Made by a program: the position numbers and the translations under genes. A DNA stretch of 64,000 nucleotides from Archangium violaceum (GTDB lineage: Bacteria > Myxococcota > Myxococcia > Myxococcales > Myxococcaceae): the NCBI RefSeq assembly GCF_016859125.1, contig NZ_CP069338.1, positions 5,643,501 through 5,707,500 of the forward strand, written 5' to 3'. Position 1 is the stretch's first letter. Each line of letters begins with the position of its first letter. The notes under the pieces were generated by a model. That model made no database searches. It saw only the letters and a list, made by a program, of their open reading frames with translations, and was not told where the DNA came from. Below are positions 43,970 to 51,431 of this stretch, one piece after another.

Positions 43970-45784
43970 TCAGGGTGAGGGACGCAGGAGCCGGATGCCG
44001 TGCTCCTGCTCCAGCCGGGTCTGCGCCTCGGAGGACACCTGGGTGAGGCGCAGGTCGAGCTCTCGCAGCAGTGGGAGCCGGATGAGCTCGGCCACACCCG
44101 CGTCCGTGACCGGGGCGCGCGTCAGGTACAGGGTCCGCAGTGAGCGGGGCAGGTGCGGGAGGCTCGCGTCCGTCACGCGGGTGCTCGCCAGGCTCAGCCA
44201 GGTGAGCCGGCCGAGTCTCGCGAGCGCCCGCACGCCCGTGTCATCCACCCGCGTGCCGCCCAGGTCCAGGGACGTGAGGAGCGGCAGCCCGTCGAGCGCG
44301 GAGAGCCCCGGGCCGGCGATGGCCGAGGAGCGCACGGAGAGCGTCTCCAACTCCCGCAGCGCGGCGAGGTGCGCCAGCCCCGCGTCCGTCACCTGCGTCT
44401 TCACGAGTTGCAGCGTTCGAAGGTGTGGGAAGGAGGCGAGCGCGGTCAGCCACTCATCCGTGAGTCGGGTGCGGCTCAGGTCGAGGTGACGCAGGGCCTC
44501 GCGCGAGCCGAGCCGGCGCAGGCCCCCGGCGCCGAGAGGCGTATCGCTGAGGTCCAGTCGGGCCAGCACGCGCAGGGGCGCGAGTGCCTCCAGTGAGGTG
44601 TCATCCAGCTCCAGCCCCGCGAGGCCGAGCTCCTCCAGCAGCTCGAAGCCTCCGACGACGCGCAGCCCGGCCCCGGTGACGGCCGTGTGCGACAGGTCCA
44701 TCTGGCGTAGACCTCGGAGGGCCGCGAGGCGCTGGAGCCCGGCATCGGAGAGGGCCGTGCCGTCGAGCTGGAGCACCTGGAGATTCTCGAGCCCGGAGAG
44801 CCATCGCAGCCCGATACCTCCCACACGCGTCTTGCTGAGCACCAGGGCCCGCAGCGAGGAGAGTCCGGCGAGGTGCTCGAGCCCCTTGTCCGACACCCGC
44901 GTGTTTCCGAGGTGGAGCGCCGTCAGGGCGCGCAGCCCGGCCACGTGGACCAGTCCCGCGTCGGAGGTGGCGGTCCTCGCCAGACCGAGCTCCTCCAGCG
45001 CCGTCATCCGGCGGAGCGCGGAGAGCCCCGTGTCGGTGACATCGCTTCCACTGACGATGAGCGTACGCAGGTGCGTGCCGGGAAGCAGCGCGAGCACGCT
45101 GTCATCGGACATGGTGTCGGAGAGGTCGAGCCACTCCAGTTGCGGACGCTCGGCGAGGAAGTCGAGTCCCGGAGGACCGACGGCCGTGCTCCCGAGCCCG
45201 AGCCGGCGCAGCCCGGTGAGGCTGGCGAGGGGCGGCAGGCCTCGGAGTGACACGGCGGTCTCGTTCAGCAGCAGCTCGGTGAGGCGGGTCCTTCCCTCCA
45301 GGTGGACGAGCCCCTTGTTCGTCACCAGGGTGCGCTCGAGGTGGAGGGACTCCAGCGTCTCCAGCCCGCGGAGGGCGGCGAGGTGCGCATCCGTGAAGGC
45401 CGTGTCCGTCAGGTAGAGGGTGGTGAGCCGGGTGCCCTCGACGAGCCGGGCGAGGAGGGTCGGCTCGGGGAGTCCCACTTCGCCGAAAGCAAGGCCCGGC
45501 ACCTGGTACTCCCTGAGCACCGCGGCCAGCGCGAGCGCCTCCGCCTCGGTGCGGACGGGCGCCAGGGGCGTGACGTACCAGGGGCCCTCCGGGAGCGGCT
45601 CGGAGTGCGCGGGGGCGGGAGGCAACACGCCCCACTCGGAGCTCACTCCCCCCGGACCTGGCCGATGGACCCTGAGGAGGGCACGAGGCTCTTCGGGGGC
45701 GGAGACCGCCGGAGGAGGGGCGGGCGGGGGACGGGGCGACGTCGCACAGGCTGCCAGGAGGAGGAGAACGAGGAGCCGGGCCAT
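43970..45784 (-). CDS. Leucine-rich-repeat lipoprotein
   Basis: 604 residues. A lipoprotein signal (LLLLAAC, lipid attachment at Cys13) is followed by a Pro-rich stretch, and then about twenty leucine-rich repeats of 23-24 residues from about residue 110 to the end. The repeat follows the pattern L-x-x-L-x-L-x-x-T-x-V-x-D-x-G-L, like the cysteine-containing/AMN1-type repeats, here without the cysteine. Probably anchored in the outer membrane as a protein-binding solenoid. Homologous repeats make the DNA internally repetitive. Confidence 0.88.
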   Translation of the reverse strand: MARLLVLLLLAACATSPRPPPAPPPAVSAPEEPRALLRVHRPGPGGVSSEWGVLPPAPAHSEPLPEGPWYVTPLAPVRTEAEALALAAVLREYQVPGLAFGEVGLPEPTLLARLVEGTRLTTLYLTDTAFTDAHLAALRGLETLESLHLERTLVTNKGLVHLEGRTRLTELLLNETAVSLRGLPPLASLTGLRRLGLGSTAVGPPGLDFLAERPQLEWLDLSDTMSDDSVLALLPGTHLRTLIVSGSDVTDTGLSALRRMTALEELGLARTATSDAGLVHVAGLRALTALHLGNTRVSDKGLEHLAGLSSLRALVLSKTRVGGIGLRWLSGLENLQVLQLDGTALSDAGLQRLAALRGLRQMDLSHTAVTGAGLRVVGGFELLEELGLAGLELDDTSLEALAPLRVLARLDLSDTPLGAGGLRRLGSREALRHLDLSRTRLTDEWLTALASFPHLRTLQLVKTQVTDAGLAHLAALRELETLSVRSSAIAGPGLSALDGLPLLTSLDLGGTRVDDTGVRALARLGRLTWLSLASTRVTDASLPHLPRSLRTLYLTRAPVTDAGVAELIRLPLLRELDLRLTQVSSEAQTRLEQEHGIRLLRPSP

Positions 45785-45835: not shown

Positions 45836-46267
45836 TCAGTGCACCACGGTGACGGGGCGGCCGGCGTGCTGGACCACGCGGTCGCTGACGGAGCCGAGCA
45901 GCCACTTGCCGCCCGGGTTGAGGCCACGCGCGCCCACGACGATGTGGTCCGCGCCGAGCTTGTCGGCCATGGCGACGATGGTGTCCGCCGGGCGGCCAAT
46001 CTCCACCACCTTCTCCACCTGGGCCTTGGGCAGATCGGCGGCCACCTCATCCAGCATGCGCCGCACGGCTTCCATCTCCTCCGGGGTGCGCTGGGGCCCG
46101 GAGATGAGCTCCGAGTCCAGGAAGCCCAGGTTGAGGACCCGGGGCGGTTCGAGGACGAAGAGAAGGGTGATGCGCGCCTGCGTCTGCTGCGCCAGGTCGT
46201 GGGCGAAGCGCGCGGCCTTGCGCGAGGTCTCCGAGCCATCGATGGCGACGAGGATGTGTTTGAGCAC
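45836..46267 (-). CDS. Universal stress protein
   Basis: 143 residues from a GTG at 46267, preceded by GGAGGAGCG. The frame is open to 46342, but homologues start with the strand KHILVAIDGSE. The UspA nucleotide motif G-2x-G-9x-G-S is present (GARGLNPGGKWLLGS), so it should bind ATP. Small cytoplasmic stress or dormancy protein. The gene stands alone between the LRR gene and the ECF sigma gene, on the opposite strand from the latter. Confidence 0.92.
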   Translation of the reverse strand: MLKHILVAIDGSETSRKAARFAHDLAQQTQARITLLFVLEPPRVLNLGFLDSELISGPQRTPEEMEAVRRMLDEVAADLPKAQVEKVVEIGRPADTIVAMADKLGADHIVVGARGLNPGGKWLLGSVSDRVVQHAGRPVTVVH

Positions 46268-46465
46268 GTCCGCTCCTCCTTGAGACGAGAATCGGGGCCG
46301 CGGCCCCATACGGTCAGGGTGGGTGGGGAGCGTCGAGGGCACAAGCCGGGACCCCGCCTGGACCCCTGACGATATGGCATGGGCTCGCCCATCCGCCTAC
46401 CCAACAGGAGGCGAGGCCTGCCTTTTCGCATCGGCCTGCCCCGCCAGCGCCGTGACCCGGGCTTT

Positions 46466-46502: not shown

Positions 46503-47240
46503 GTGACGGGTAGTTTTGGAGGCGTGGAGCCCCTTCCGCAGCGGTTCGCGACCACCCGTTGGAGCCTGATCCTCGCCGCCGGCACGGGCCACGCGCCCGA
46601 GGCCCGGGAAGCACTGGCGACGTTGTGCGGACTCTACTGGTATCCGCTCTATGCCTTCGTCCGCCGCCGCGGTCACACGGCCGAGGAGGCTCGAGACCTG
46701 ACGCAGGGCTTCTTCGCGCGGCTGTTGGAGCGCGACGACCTCGCCACCCTGGATCCCCGGCGAGGCCGCTTCCGTGCGTGGTTGCTCACCGCGCTCAAGC
46801 ACTACCTGTCCAACGAGAGGGATCGCCTCCAGGCCGTCAAGCGGGGTGGAGGCGAGTCGTTGCTCTCCATCGACGGAGAGGAGGCCGAGAGCACCTATGG
46901 CCTGGAACCCTCGCACGACCTCACGCCCGAGCGGCTCTTCGAGCGCCGCTGGGCCCTGGCGCTGTTGCAGCGGGTGACGGCCCTGCTGCGCGCCGAGTGG
47001 GTCCAGGCCGGCAGGGAGTCGCTCTTCGAGAAGCTGAAGGGCTGCCTCATGGACAGGACGGAGAGCTCCTACCAGCACATCGCCCACGACGTGGGGATGA
47101 GCGAGGGCGCGGTGAAGGTGGCGGCGCATCGGATGCGCTCCCGCTTCCGCGAGCTGCTGCGCGGCGAGATCGCCCAGACGGTGGAGCACCCCCACGAGAT
47201 CGACGGCGAGCTGCGGCACCTGCTCGCGGCGCTGGGGTGA
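46503..47240 (+). CDS. ECF-type sigma factor coupled to a Ser/Thr kinase
   Basis: 245 residues from a GTG at 46503; a GTG at 46524 would remove seven residues. Neither has a perfect ribosome site. The N-terminal motif [13 protein letters not shown] and the region-2 helix [28 protein letters not shown] are typical of the kinase-linked ECF groups known from planctomycetes and myxobacteria. Region 4 has the helix-turn-helix ([22 protein letters not shown]). There is no anti-sigma gene; instead a Ser/Thr kinase starts 4 bases downstream. In the related Vibrio EcfP/PknT system, threonine phosphorylation of the sigma factor switches it on. The same logic is likely here. Confidence 0.88.
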
Positions 47241-47244
47241 AGCC

Positions 47245-49356
47245 GTGTCCTCCTGCTCCGGGTGCGGAATGGATCTCTCGAGCGGTGCTCCCGAGGGGCT
47301 GTGCCCCCGGTGCCTGCTCTCCGGACTCCTGGAGGATGACGGGCCGGAGCCCGACCCCTCCGAGCCCTTTCCTCTTCCGGGTGAACGCGGCCCCGTGCGC
47401 TTCGGCGAGTACGAGCTCCTCGAGCGCATCGCCCGGGGTGGGATGGGGGTCGTCTACAAGGCGCGGCAGGTGCGCATCAACCGCCGGGTCGCCCTGAAGA
47501 TGATCGTCGACGGCGAGCTGGCCACCGAGCAGGAGCTCTACCGTTTCCGCGCCGAGGCCGAGGCCGCCGCGTTGCTCGAGCATCCCCACATCGTCCCCAT
47601 CTACGAGGTGGGTGTGCACGAGGGCCGCCACTACTTCACGATGAAGTTGATGGAAGGCGGGAGCCTGGCCGATCACCTGGAGCTGCTGGGGAGCTCACCG
47701 AGGCGCGCGGCGGAGCTCGTCGCGGCCGTGGCCCGGGCGGTTCACTTCGGCCACCAGCACGGCATCCTCCACCGTGACCTGAAGCCAGCGAACATCCTGC
47801 TGGACGCGGACGGGAAGCCGCACGTGGGAGACTTCGGAGTCGCGCGGCACCTGGAGAAGGAAGGGGGCCTCACCCAGACGGGGATGGTGATTGGAACGCC
47901 GGCCTACATGGCGCCGGAGCAGGCCGCGGGACGCATCCGGGAGCTCACCACGGCCGCGGACGTGTACAGCCTGGGCGCCATCCTCTACGAGCTGCTGACG
48001 GGCCGGCCGCCCTTCGTGGCGGACACGGCGACGGCCATCCTCCGGCAGGTCGCGGAGGCCGAGCCCGTGGCGCCGAGCGCGCTCGGCGTCCAGGTGGACC
48101 GGGATCTGGAGACCCTCTGTCTCAAGTGCCTGGAGAAGGAGCCGGGCCGCCGCTTCGGCTCGGCGGAGGAGCTGGCGCGGGAGCTGGAGCGCTGGTTGAA
48201 CGGCGAGCCCATCCAGGCGAGGCGAAGCGGCCGTGCGGCTCGCGCGTGGCGGTGGTGCCGGCGGCACCCCCTGGTGGCGGGCGGCCTGGCCACGGGCATG
48301 TGGTTCCTGCTCGTGATGACGGTGGTGTCGCTCTCCATCGCGCGAACGCAGGAGCTGGAGCGGCGCCAGGAGGTGTTGAGGGCCAATGCCTACGCCGCGC
48401 GGACGGTGGCGGGCACGGTGCTCTTCCAGTTGCAGGAGTATGGCCAGGCCGTCGAGCGGGTCGCGGCGGATGGCTGGCTGCGCGAGGTGTTGAAGCGCGG
48501 AGATCCGGAGGCCCTGCGGCTCTTCGTCCGGACGACGCATGACATCCACGATGATCCGCGCAATGGGCTGCGGGTCGCGGGTGGACCGTCGCCCTTCGAG
48601 GGCTGGCTCCTCCTGGACGCGGCGGGCCTCGCGCGGGCCCACTGGCCGGCGCCTCCCGAGGGCTTCCTCGGCAAGGACTTCGAGTGGAGGGACTTCTTCC
48701 AGGGCGCGGCGCAACTGGCGCGCAAGGGCCGGCACGCGTCGTACGTCTCGCGTGTGTTCCAGTCGGAGGTGGATGGCCAGTACCGCTTCGCCCTCTCCGC
48801 GCCCGTCTATGACGAGAACGGCCAGTGGCTCGGCGTCGTGGCGGCCATGGTGGGCACGGGCTCCATGCTGGGCGCGTTGCGGCTGACGGACACGGATGTG
48901 GAGGAGCGCACCACCGTGCTCGTGGCGCCCCGGGACCATGAGCAGGGACAACCTCCCCTGTCCGAACCGGAGACCTCCATCATCATCGTCCACGAGGCGC
49001 TCGCACATGGAGCGATCAGCGCGCTCGATGCCACCGCCGCGCGCCGTGTCGAGGAGGTGCTGCGGCAGGCCCCCCGGCATGGCCCGCAGCAACTCCGGCT
49101 CCCGGGGACGGGTCCGCTCGCGGCCTACGAGGACCATCGGGATCCGCTGATTGGCGGCGCGAGCCCGTGGCTGGCGGCGTTCGCGCCCGTGGGCCGCACG
49201 GGATTCGTGACCGTCGTCCAGACACGGGACGATGCCGCCTCCGCGCCGCTTCGGAAACTCGCCACGCGGCTGGCGTTGTGGGGAGGCGTTCCCTTTCTTC
49301 TCGGGGTGGCGGCGATGCTGGGGCTCGCGACGAAATCGTTACGTGCCCGGGCGTAA
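47245..49356 (+). CDS. Ser/Thr protein kinase with zinc ribbon and Cache-like sensor domain
   Basis: 703 residues from a GTG at 47245, four bases after the sigma factor stop. An N-terminal zinc ribbon (C4-x2-C7, C20-x2-C23) is followed by a complete Hanks-type kinase (about 55-320): glycine loop [12 protein letters not shown], Lys85, catalytic HRDLKPAN (Asp178), DFG (196-198) and [11 protein letters not shown] single span (343-365) leads to a periplasmic domain like dCache ([31 protein letters not shown]), and a second span near the C-terminus. This is a receptor kinase reading a periplasmic signal and probably phosphorylating the upstream sigma factor. All key catalytic residues are present. 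Confidence 0.93.
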
Positions 49357-49376
49357 CCTTTCGCGAGTCTTTATTC

Positions 49377-49967
49377 ATGGAGAGGGCGAACCCCTACCGA
49401 GGTCTCGCCTTGCGCCAACTCGCACAGATGTCCGCTCTCCTCCTGCTCCTGGGTCTCTGCTCCTGCGGAGATCCGCGACAGGACTTCGTCGGTTCCTTTG
49501 ATGTGCAGGGCCGCCTTTCCCTTTCCGACGGCAACTACCAGGAAACGGCACTCGTCGACGTCCCCATGGTGGTCGTGGCCGATGCCTTCGACTCCGACAA
49601 GCTCTACCTGGACTTCGACTGTGGCCTGGTCGGAACGATCGAGGACCACACCTCCTTTTCCCTTGATAGGAAGAAGTGCCCCTCGGACTTCGTTGATGGC
49701 TGCGAGCTCACCTGGACGTTCAGGGAGGGCGAGGGAACGAAGACGGAGGGCGACCCGACGCTCGCACTCCGGTTCAGCGGGGACATCAAGGTCAGTTGTT
49801 CCGGGGACTCGCCCAGGATGTACTCCTTCACGTTCACTCTGACGGCGACACAGGACGAGTCCGTGTCGAAGAGCTCGCGACAGGAGGAGCGAACCCAGTC
49901 GATTCGTACGGCCCTGGAGCAGGCGGCACTCTCGAGCTTCCGGAGAGGCGCCTCCTCCACCCGGTAA
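49377..49967 (+). CDS. Lipoprotein of unknown function
   Basis: 196 residues from the ATG at 49377, with a weak ribosome site. The signal peptide (MALLLLLGLCSC-like core, residues about 16-30) has the lipobox L-C-S-C, giving an N-terminal lipidated Cys. The mature part is beta-rich and acidic, with Cys residues in DFDCGL, KKCPSD, DGCELT and VSCSG that could form two disulfides. No known family. It starts 20 bases after the kinase gene on the same strand, so it may be part of the sigma/kinase transcript. Confidence 0.65.
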   Translation: MERANPYRGLALRQLAQMSALLLLLGLCSCGDPRQDFVGSFDVQGRLSLSDGNYQETALVDVPMVVVADAFDSDKLYLDFDCGLVGTIEDHTSFSLDRKKCPSDFVDGCELTWTFREGEGTKTEGDPTLALRFSGDIKVSCSGDSPRMYSFTFTLTATQDESVSKSSRQEERTQSIRTALEQAALSSFRRGASSTR

Positions 49968-50155: not shown

Positions 50156-51355
50156 CTACGGCTTCACGGTGGTGACGAACTTCGTCTTCCCACCCTCGAC
50201 CTGGAGGATGACGGCCTCCTTCACCGCGTCGCGGTTCTCGTCGAGGTTGATGGTGCCGGCCACGCCCGGGAAGTTCTGGGTCGCGGCCAGCGCGTCGCGG
50301 ATGGCCTTGCCCGACAGGTCCGGCGCGCGCGTCATCGCGTCGATGGCGAGCTGCGCGGCGTCATAGGCGAGGGCCGCCACGCTGTCCGGCACGGCGCCGT
50401 AGGCCGCCTTGTACTTCTTGATGAACTCCTGCACGCGGGGATCCGGGTTGTCCACCGAGTAGTGGTTGGCGTAGTAGCTGCCCTCGATGGCGGCACCGCC
50501 CAGCTCGAACAGCTTGTCGGACTCCCAGCCATCTCCGCCGAGCAGCGGCACCATCAGCCCCAGCTCGCGCGCCTGCCGGGCGATGATGCCCACGTCGGTG
50601 TAGTACCCGGGGACGAAGAGGGCCTGCGGCTTCATCTTCTTGATGGCGGTGAGCTGCGCGCGGAAGTCCGTGTCGCCCTTGGAGTAGCTCTCGGTGGCCA
50701 CGATGGTGCCGCCCATCTCGGAGAACTTGCGGTTGAAGACGTCCGTGAGGCCCACCGAGTACGCGCTCTTGTTGTCCTGCAGCACCGCCACCTGGTTCAG
50801 CTTCAGGTTGTCGCGGGCGAACTTCGCCATCACGAAGCCCTGGAAGGGATCGATGAAGCAGACGCGGAAGATGTAGTCGCCCTTCTGGGTGACGGCGGGA
50901 TTGGTGGACGAGGGGGTGATCATGGGCACCCCGGCCGCCTGGGCCTTGTCCGCCATGGCCATGGAGTTGGACGAGGCGGCCTCGCCCAGGATGACCGCCA
51001 CCTTGTCCTGGGTGATGAGGCGCGTGGCCGCCTGGGCGGCCTCCTCGGGCCTGCCCTGGCTGTCATAGACGCGCACGGCCAGCTTCTTGCCCTTCACTCC
51101 ACCCGCGGCGTTGGCCTCCTGGACGGCCATGGCGATGCCATTGCGCGCGGAGACGCCGAAAGTGGCCTCGCTGCCGGTGAGGCTGCCCACCTGCCCGAGC
51201 AGGAGGGTGTCCGCGCCCGCCGGGGTCTCTCCGGTGGAAGCCGCGGCCGGCGTGGAGGGGGACGCGGAAGAGGGCGCGGGGGGAGCCTTCTTCTCACAGG
51301 CGGCCACCAGCACGGTGAGCGCGGCGAGGAGCAAGGGGATGACGGGACGACGCAT
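50156..51355 (-). CDS. Branched-chain amino acid-type ABC substrate-binding lipoprotein
   Basis: 399 residues from the ATG at 51355, with GGAGG ahead. A lipoprotein signal (LVAAC, Cys20) precedes a low-complexity Ser/Pro/Ala linker to about residue 50. The periplasmic binding fold of the LivJ/Leu-Ile-Val type follows: LLGQVGSLTGSEA, GKKLAVRVYDSQG, AVILGEAASSNSM, PSSTNPAVTQKG and ALAYDAAQLAIDA. The ligand might be an amino acid, amide or aromatic acid; the sequence does not say. There is no permease or ATPase gene beside it, so it is an orphan of the system or feeds a transporter elsewhere. Confidence 0.9.
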   Translation of the reverse strand: MRRPVIPLLLAALTVLVAACEKKAPPAPSSASPSTPAAASTGETPAGADTLLLGQVGSLTGSEATFGVSARNGIAMAVQEANAAGGVKGKKLAVRVYDSQGRPEEAAQAATRLITQDKVAVILGEAASSNSMAMADKAQAAGVPMITPSSTNPAVTQKGDYIFRVCFIDPFQGFVMAKFARDNLKLNQVAVLQDNKSAYSVGLTDVFNRKFSEMGGTIVATESYSKGDTDFRAQLTAIKKMKPQALFVPGYYTDVGIIARQARELGLMVPLLGGDGWESDKLFELGGAAIEGSYYANHYSVDNPDPRVQEFIKKYKAAYGAVPDSVAALAYDAAQLAIDAMTRAPDLSGKAIRDALAATQNFPGVAGTINLDENRDAVKEAVILQVEGGKTKFVTTVKP

Positions 51356-51431
51356 GGGGGCTTCCTCCAGAAACAAAGGCGCCCGCCTTCTACCTCACTC
51401 CGGCGCTCCTGGCATGCCGGGGGGGGAGTCG

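Follow-up and report, generated by a model that had tools for sequence, protein, structure and literature searches.

The analysed stretch of Archangium violaceum DNA (64,000 nucleotides, hereafter the window) carries a gene for an ECF-type sigma factor directly followed by a gene for a receptor-like Ser/Thr kinase with a dCache sensor domain, and this sigma-kinase pair is a conserved module. It probably operates as a one-to-one transmembrane module, in which the dCache kinase would phosphorylate the adjacent sigma factor and so govern a very small regulon. The kind of system is known; its dCache sensor, a likely activation site other than that of EcfP and a predicted regulon that can be read from the DNA set it apart from the studied examples.

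The sigma factor gene (46503-47240, + strand) encodes 245 aa from a GTG start, and an internal GTG at 46524 is a possible alternative start. Its product matches Sigma70_r2 with an E value of 1e-6, which exceeds the Pfam cut-off. The kinase gene (47245-49356, + strand; 703 aa; Pkinase, E 1e-50) begins after a gap of 4 bp, and a small lipoprotein gene (49410-49967, + strand) lies behind it. The upstream neighbour of the pair is a Usp protein gene (45836-46342, - strand) and the downstream neighbour is an ABC substrate-binding protein gene (50156-51376, - strand); no anti-sigma gene was found near the pair when the flanking genes were checked with Pfam. The sequence-only reading of this locus had described an ECF sigma factor linked to a receptor-like Ser/Thr kinase, with a zinc ribbon in the kinase, a lipoprotein gene after it and no anti-sigma gene, and all of these points were upheld. 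The product of the downstream neighbour is a periplasmic Peripla_BP_6 protein, whose gene converges on the lipoprotein gene, and no evidence linking this protein to the switch was found. The window also encodes, at 43970-45784 (- strand), a large leucine-rich-repeat protein with repeats across most of its length and a lipoprotein-like N-terminus.

Among the 145 genomes of the order sampled, matches that span most of the sensor, at 36-100% identity, occur at 13 loci, distributed over the window's genome and 10 relatives. A sigma orthologue lies directly upstream of the dCache kinase in all 13 loci (11 myxobacterial genomes), with gaps of 4-70 bp between the two genes, and each of three genomes has two such pairs. 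The genome of the window, a single contig of 12.7 Mb, encodes about 156 kinases, and the pairing in 13 of 13 loci is far above chance. In addition, the divergence of the sigma factor and that of the kinase covary (Mantel r 0.91), and the gene neighbourhoods beyond the two genes are mostly unlike one another, except within one genus. Archangium lansinium (L072) is a genus-mate of the window's genome, and Sorangium cellulosum So ce26 (L123) has a copy, sensor included, that is more distantly related. The window's genome encodes one further ECF-STK pair whose sigma factor belongs to this family (L174:5585-7755; G000:C1:7663584-7665754); the kinase of that pair combines a zinc ribbon with several hydrophobic segments, and no dCache domain was matched in it.

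The kinase domain (residues 56-308; 47410-48168, + strand; Pfam PF00069) has intact catalytic residues, with K85, D178 and D196 invariant across the 13 orthologues, and together with its membrane segment and extracytoplasmic domain this makes the protein a receptor-type Hanks kinase. The zinc-ribbon-like Cys pairs (CxxC...CxxC) at residues 4-23 (47254-47313, + strand) read CSGC...CPRC in the window; both pairs are kept in 10 of the 13 orthologues and one pair remains in the other three. A zinc ribbon N-terminal to the kinase domain is also found in 62 of 82 related kinases. The sensor domain (residues ~366-671; 48340-49257, + strand) is bracketed by hydrophobic segments beginning at ~342 and ~676. 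The dCache_1 match of the window's kinase scores under the Pfam cut-off; dCache_1 was matched in all seven sensor regions scanned, and a profile of seven sensor regions retrieves DctB and KinD, whose structures are solved. Residues 336-703 were modelled with AlphaFold (7 sequences, pLDDT 82); the model resembles the ligand-binding domains of PctA, CtaA, Mlp37 and DctB in a Foldseek comparison, and its alignment with PscC (6mni) by VIA-align gave a Z score of 19.1 and 2.9 A over 235 residues. The predicted structure thus confirms the sensor as a membrane-flanked dCache domain. The Cache-like domain had been proposed from sequence with the proviso that a predicted structure lacking a Cache fold would speak against it, and the fold recovered was a dCache fold. 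R482, in an FRDYF segment, is invariant in the 13 orthologues and aligns with the Arg of DctB; when the amino-acid motif of PctA (Arg, aromatics, Asp) was compared, its further positions were not rigorously mappable. In fold and membrane-flanked placement the domain is the same as the dCache_1 sensors PctA, CtaA, Mlp37, DctB and KinD; in contrast to these, it sits on a Hanks-type kinase that is paired with a sigma factor.

Previous studies established direct phosphorylation of ECF sigma factors by neighbouring Ser/Thr kinases (STKs) for ECF43, namely EcfP/PknT of Vibrio parahaemolyticus and EcfK/PknS of Xanthomonas citri (PMC8999054, PMC13147305). STK-linked ECF groups besides ECF43 have been described, and the switching of the numerous STK-linked sigma factors beyond ECF43 was called open (PMC8999054). 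The window's pair resembles ECF43 in that an ECF sigma factor without an anti-sigma gene is encoded beside a Ser/Thr kinase that spans the membrane and has an extracytoplasmic portion (PMC8999054, PMC13147305). However, the sigma factor lacks the phospho-Thr of sigma2.2 and retains the acid, the kinase carries a zinc ribbon at its N-terminus, and its sensor is a dCache domain, whereas that of PknS is a TPR region. An STK neighbourhood together with a kept acidic DAED-like motif places the sigma factor beside the non-ECF43 STK-linked groups, such as the largely planctomycetal ECF59, ECF61, ECF62, ECF217 and ECF283, a likeness drawn from neighbourhood and motif; the dCache sensor and the myxobacterial subclade set the window's pair apart from these groups. 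When GTDB genomes were searched with an alignment of the sigma factor, 80 loci were recovered; Planctomycetota and Verrucomicrobiota contributed most of them and Acidobacteriota some. An STK gene is adjacent to the sigma gene in 68 of the 80 loci, and lies within the fetched flanks in 74; the 68 adjacent kinases are the reason why the system counts as of a known kind. Partner kinases in other phyla bear WD40, TPR, RDD or phosphonate-binding modules. Another sensor fusion of this type, a sigma-linked kinase with a phosphonate-type periplasmic binding domain, was observed in a Limisphaerales genome (L103:5984-8212).

In EcfP (STTA) and EcfK (QATE), the residue phosphorylated is the third of the DAED position (PMC8999054, PMC13147305). 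The window's sigma2.2 motif is E62-A63-R64-D65: the phospho-Thr site, position 64, is occupied by Arg, no more than about 5% of 88 relatives have Ser or Thr there, and all 88 sequences have an acidic residue (Asp or Glu) at position 65. The same gene arrangement, the absence of an anti-sigma gene and a kinase of similar general type (PMC8999054) might suggest that the sigma factor is activated exactly like EcfP and EcfK, with a phospho-Thr in sigma2.2 supplying the charge missing for beta' binding; however, such activation is already contradicted by the alignment at positions 64 and 65, and we regard it as extremely improbable. The comparison with EcfP/PknT made in the sequence-only reading therefore fails at the level of chemistry. 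With Arg at the phospho-Thr position and the DAED acid kept, activation by phosphorylation must therefore use another site. T18 and T226 are invariant across the clade, and T17 and S21 nearly so. In a model of the sigma factor (44 sequences, pLDDT 82.5), T17 and T18 fall in a low-confidence stretch ahead of the first helix and T226 in a turn preceding an extra C-terminal helix. All four residues are candidate phosphosites only, because their conservation may be structural. T141 was considered as a counterpart of the EcfK linker Thr and set aside, since it immediately precedes the helix that begins at 142 and many relatives have Asp or Ser in its place.

The retained acid bears on a different reading as well. 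As the core-binding acid is kept, the sigma factor may bind RNA polymerase unphosphorylated, so that it could be intrinsically active, with a kinase that acts negatively or mainly on other substrates and a linkage that serves co-expression. Several substrates are indeed frequent for bacterial STKs (PMC13147305). Against this, the strict pairing in the 13 loci and in 68 of the 80 loci of other phyla, together with the covarying divergence, points to a specific partnership, although the sign of control is not fixed thereby. We consider an intrinsically active sigma factor unlikely, and prefer the reading in which the kinase activates its neighbour.

A possible output of the pair is suggested by a promoter-like footprint. 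Comparison of the 13 loci revealed a shared element in intergenic DNA, GTAACC-N14/15-CTTYA. No distinct signal emerged from a search for common 8-mers upstream of the sigma genes; visual inspection of the 8-mer output drew attention to the GTAACC element, which was tested afterwards. In the 13 loci, the 4.8 kb around the sigma and kinase genes contain 11 copies of the footprint, versus a single copy in 292 kb elsewhere; the corresponding p-value (2e-19) overstates the significance, because the test was devised post hoc on related loci. The single copy elsewhere lies on the other strand, immediately ahead of a sigma gene. In L032, a full GTAACC-N14-CTTCA on the opposite strand, some 80 bp ahead of the sigma gene, points away from that gene, and a divergent target may exist there. 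The footprint is present in some position at 12 of the 13 loci: GTAAC lies no more than 70 nt from the kinase stop in 10, complete elements stand upstream of the sigma gene in L038-L040 and between the sigma and kinase genes in L029, L032 and L038, and L030 is without the GTAAC element. In the window, the only match of the element's form is GTAACC-N14-ATTCAT (49353-49378, + strand), which overlaps the kinase stop codon; an A replaces C at the first -10 base relative to CTTYAY, the sole -10 mismatch. Upstream of the window's sigma gene no GTAAC element was found. An extended form, GTAACCTTT-N11/12-NTTYA, occurs six times in the 145 genomes, three of them at dCache-kinase loci, and the 49353-49378 site is its only occurrence in the window's genome. 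Genome-wide the motif is rare, with counts in 18 genomes close to those of the reversed control, and at that level no further targets are claimed from the motif alone.

The element might instead be the site of another regulator or sigma factor, in which case the lipoprotein gene would not be a target of the window's sigma factor. It is known by comparison alone, its -10 half is variable (CCCCAG in L034 and L037), and GTAAC is not enriched near related sigma genes of other phyla. However, its two-block form with ECF-like spacing and its concentration in three positions at the loci of this sigma factor argue for a promoter read by the sigma factor itself, as does its occurrence before an unlinked lipoprotein homologue. 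An unrelated reader of the element is thus doubtful in our judgement, and recognition by the paired sigma factor is the interpretation adopted below.

The lipoprotein encoded behind the kinase has the lipobox LCSC and no Pfam match. Its likely start is the TTG at 49410, which has the SD sequence GAGG and aligns with the TTG of L029, the nearest relative; ATG codons at 49377 and 49428 are alternative starts. In the window and in L029 the gene comes immediately after that of the kinase, an arrangement that could fit the earlier suggestion of a dedicated sensor part, such as a periplasmic ligand carrier or an inhibitor of the dCache domain. However, only 3 of the 13 loci keep it in the vicinity of the pair and the other 10 lack it there, other genomes encode homologues that are not linked to the pair or that occur in its absence, and a separate promoter-like element precedes it. 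The suggestion was accordingly given up as very unlikely, and the lipoprotein was also rejected as a conserved third component. The separate element and the infrequent linkage to the pair together indicate that the lipoprotein is probably a target and not a co-sensor. In G043, a sister genome that has the sigma factor, an unlinked lipoprotein homologue is preceded by GTAACC-N14-CTTTAG; no element was found in front of homologues in genomes without a window-type sigma factor, nor in front of the homologue in L159, a sigma-bearing genome.

Other genes take the place behind the element in the relatives. TIGR04222 membrane proteins are encoded there in six loci (L031 and L033-L037), and in four of these the following genes encode an MNIO/BufB-like protein and a partner protein. 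The six are Pyxidicoccus/Myxococcus relatives; L033 (7121-11732), L034, L035 and L037 show TIGR04222, MNIO (BufB-like), partner and MuiA-type DUF4139 genes with a GTAACC element in front, and in L031 and L036 a TIGR04222 membrane protein stands behind the pair. In L039 and L040, other predicted secreted proteins are encoded behind the element. TIGR04222 proteins with Cys-rich tails have been proposed as MNIO substrates, and sigma-factor genes have been reported in Buf1 clusters (PMC12452194). The gene set of the TIGR04222-MNIO clusters is thus found behind the pair in four relatives; in the window's genome, however, no TIGR04222 protein was found. This genome has three MNIO (PF05114) genes, two of them strong matches (G000:C1:7828134, 7773366 and 10522766), which sit at other loci, with no link to the pair found. 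A kinase-run ECF sigma factor before such clusters may be unreported, because the word "kinase" has zero occurrences in the text of the landscape paper (PMC12452194), although the literature searched is incomplete.

Taken together, we propose that the dCache domain, outside the inner membrane, would bind a small ligand and thereby control the cytoplasmic Ser/Thr kinase domain, which in turn would phosphorylate the adjacently encoded sigma factor at a site other than the sigma2.2 threonine of EcfP and EcfK, possibly T18 or T226. The phosphorylated sigma factor would then guide RNA polymerase to GTAACC-N14/15-CTTYA promoters. Its very small regulon would comprise the gene behind the kinase, which is the lipoprotein gene in the window, and in several relatives the sigma and kinase genes too.

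The alignment shows that the EcfP phosphosite cannot explain the clade of this sigma factor. A more far-reaching possibility, which we put forward only tentatively, is that the pair represents a second phosphorylation chemistry, in which a dCache kinase acts on terminal Ser/Thr residues (T18, T226) of an acid-keeping, non-ECF43 sigma factor with a DNA-readable regulon of one or a few genes. The locus offers a compact test case for this kind of regulation, with one kinase, a sensor fold fit for ligand screens, one sigma factor, and a predicted promoter and target adjoining the pair. For some TIGR04222-MNIO clusters, the relatives point to a possible regulator. If the second chemistry holds, the target in several relatives would be a Cys-rich TIGR04222 membrane protein, encoded four times with an MNIO maturase, so that a RiPP-like modification operon would come under the control of ligand sensing.
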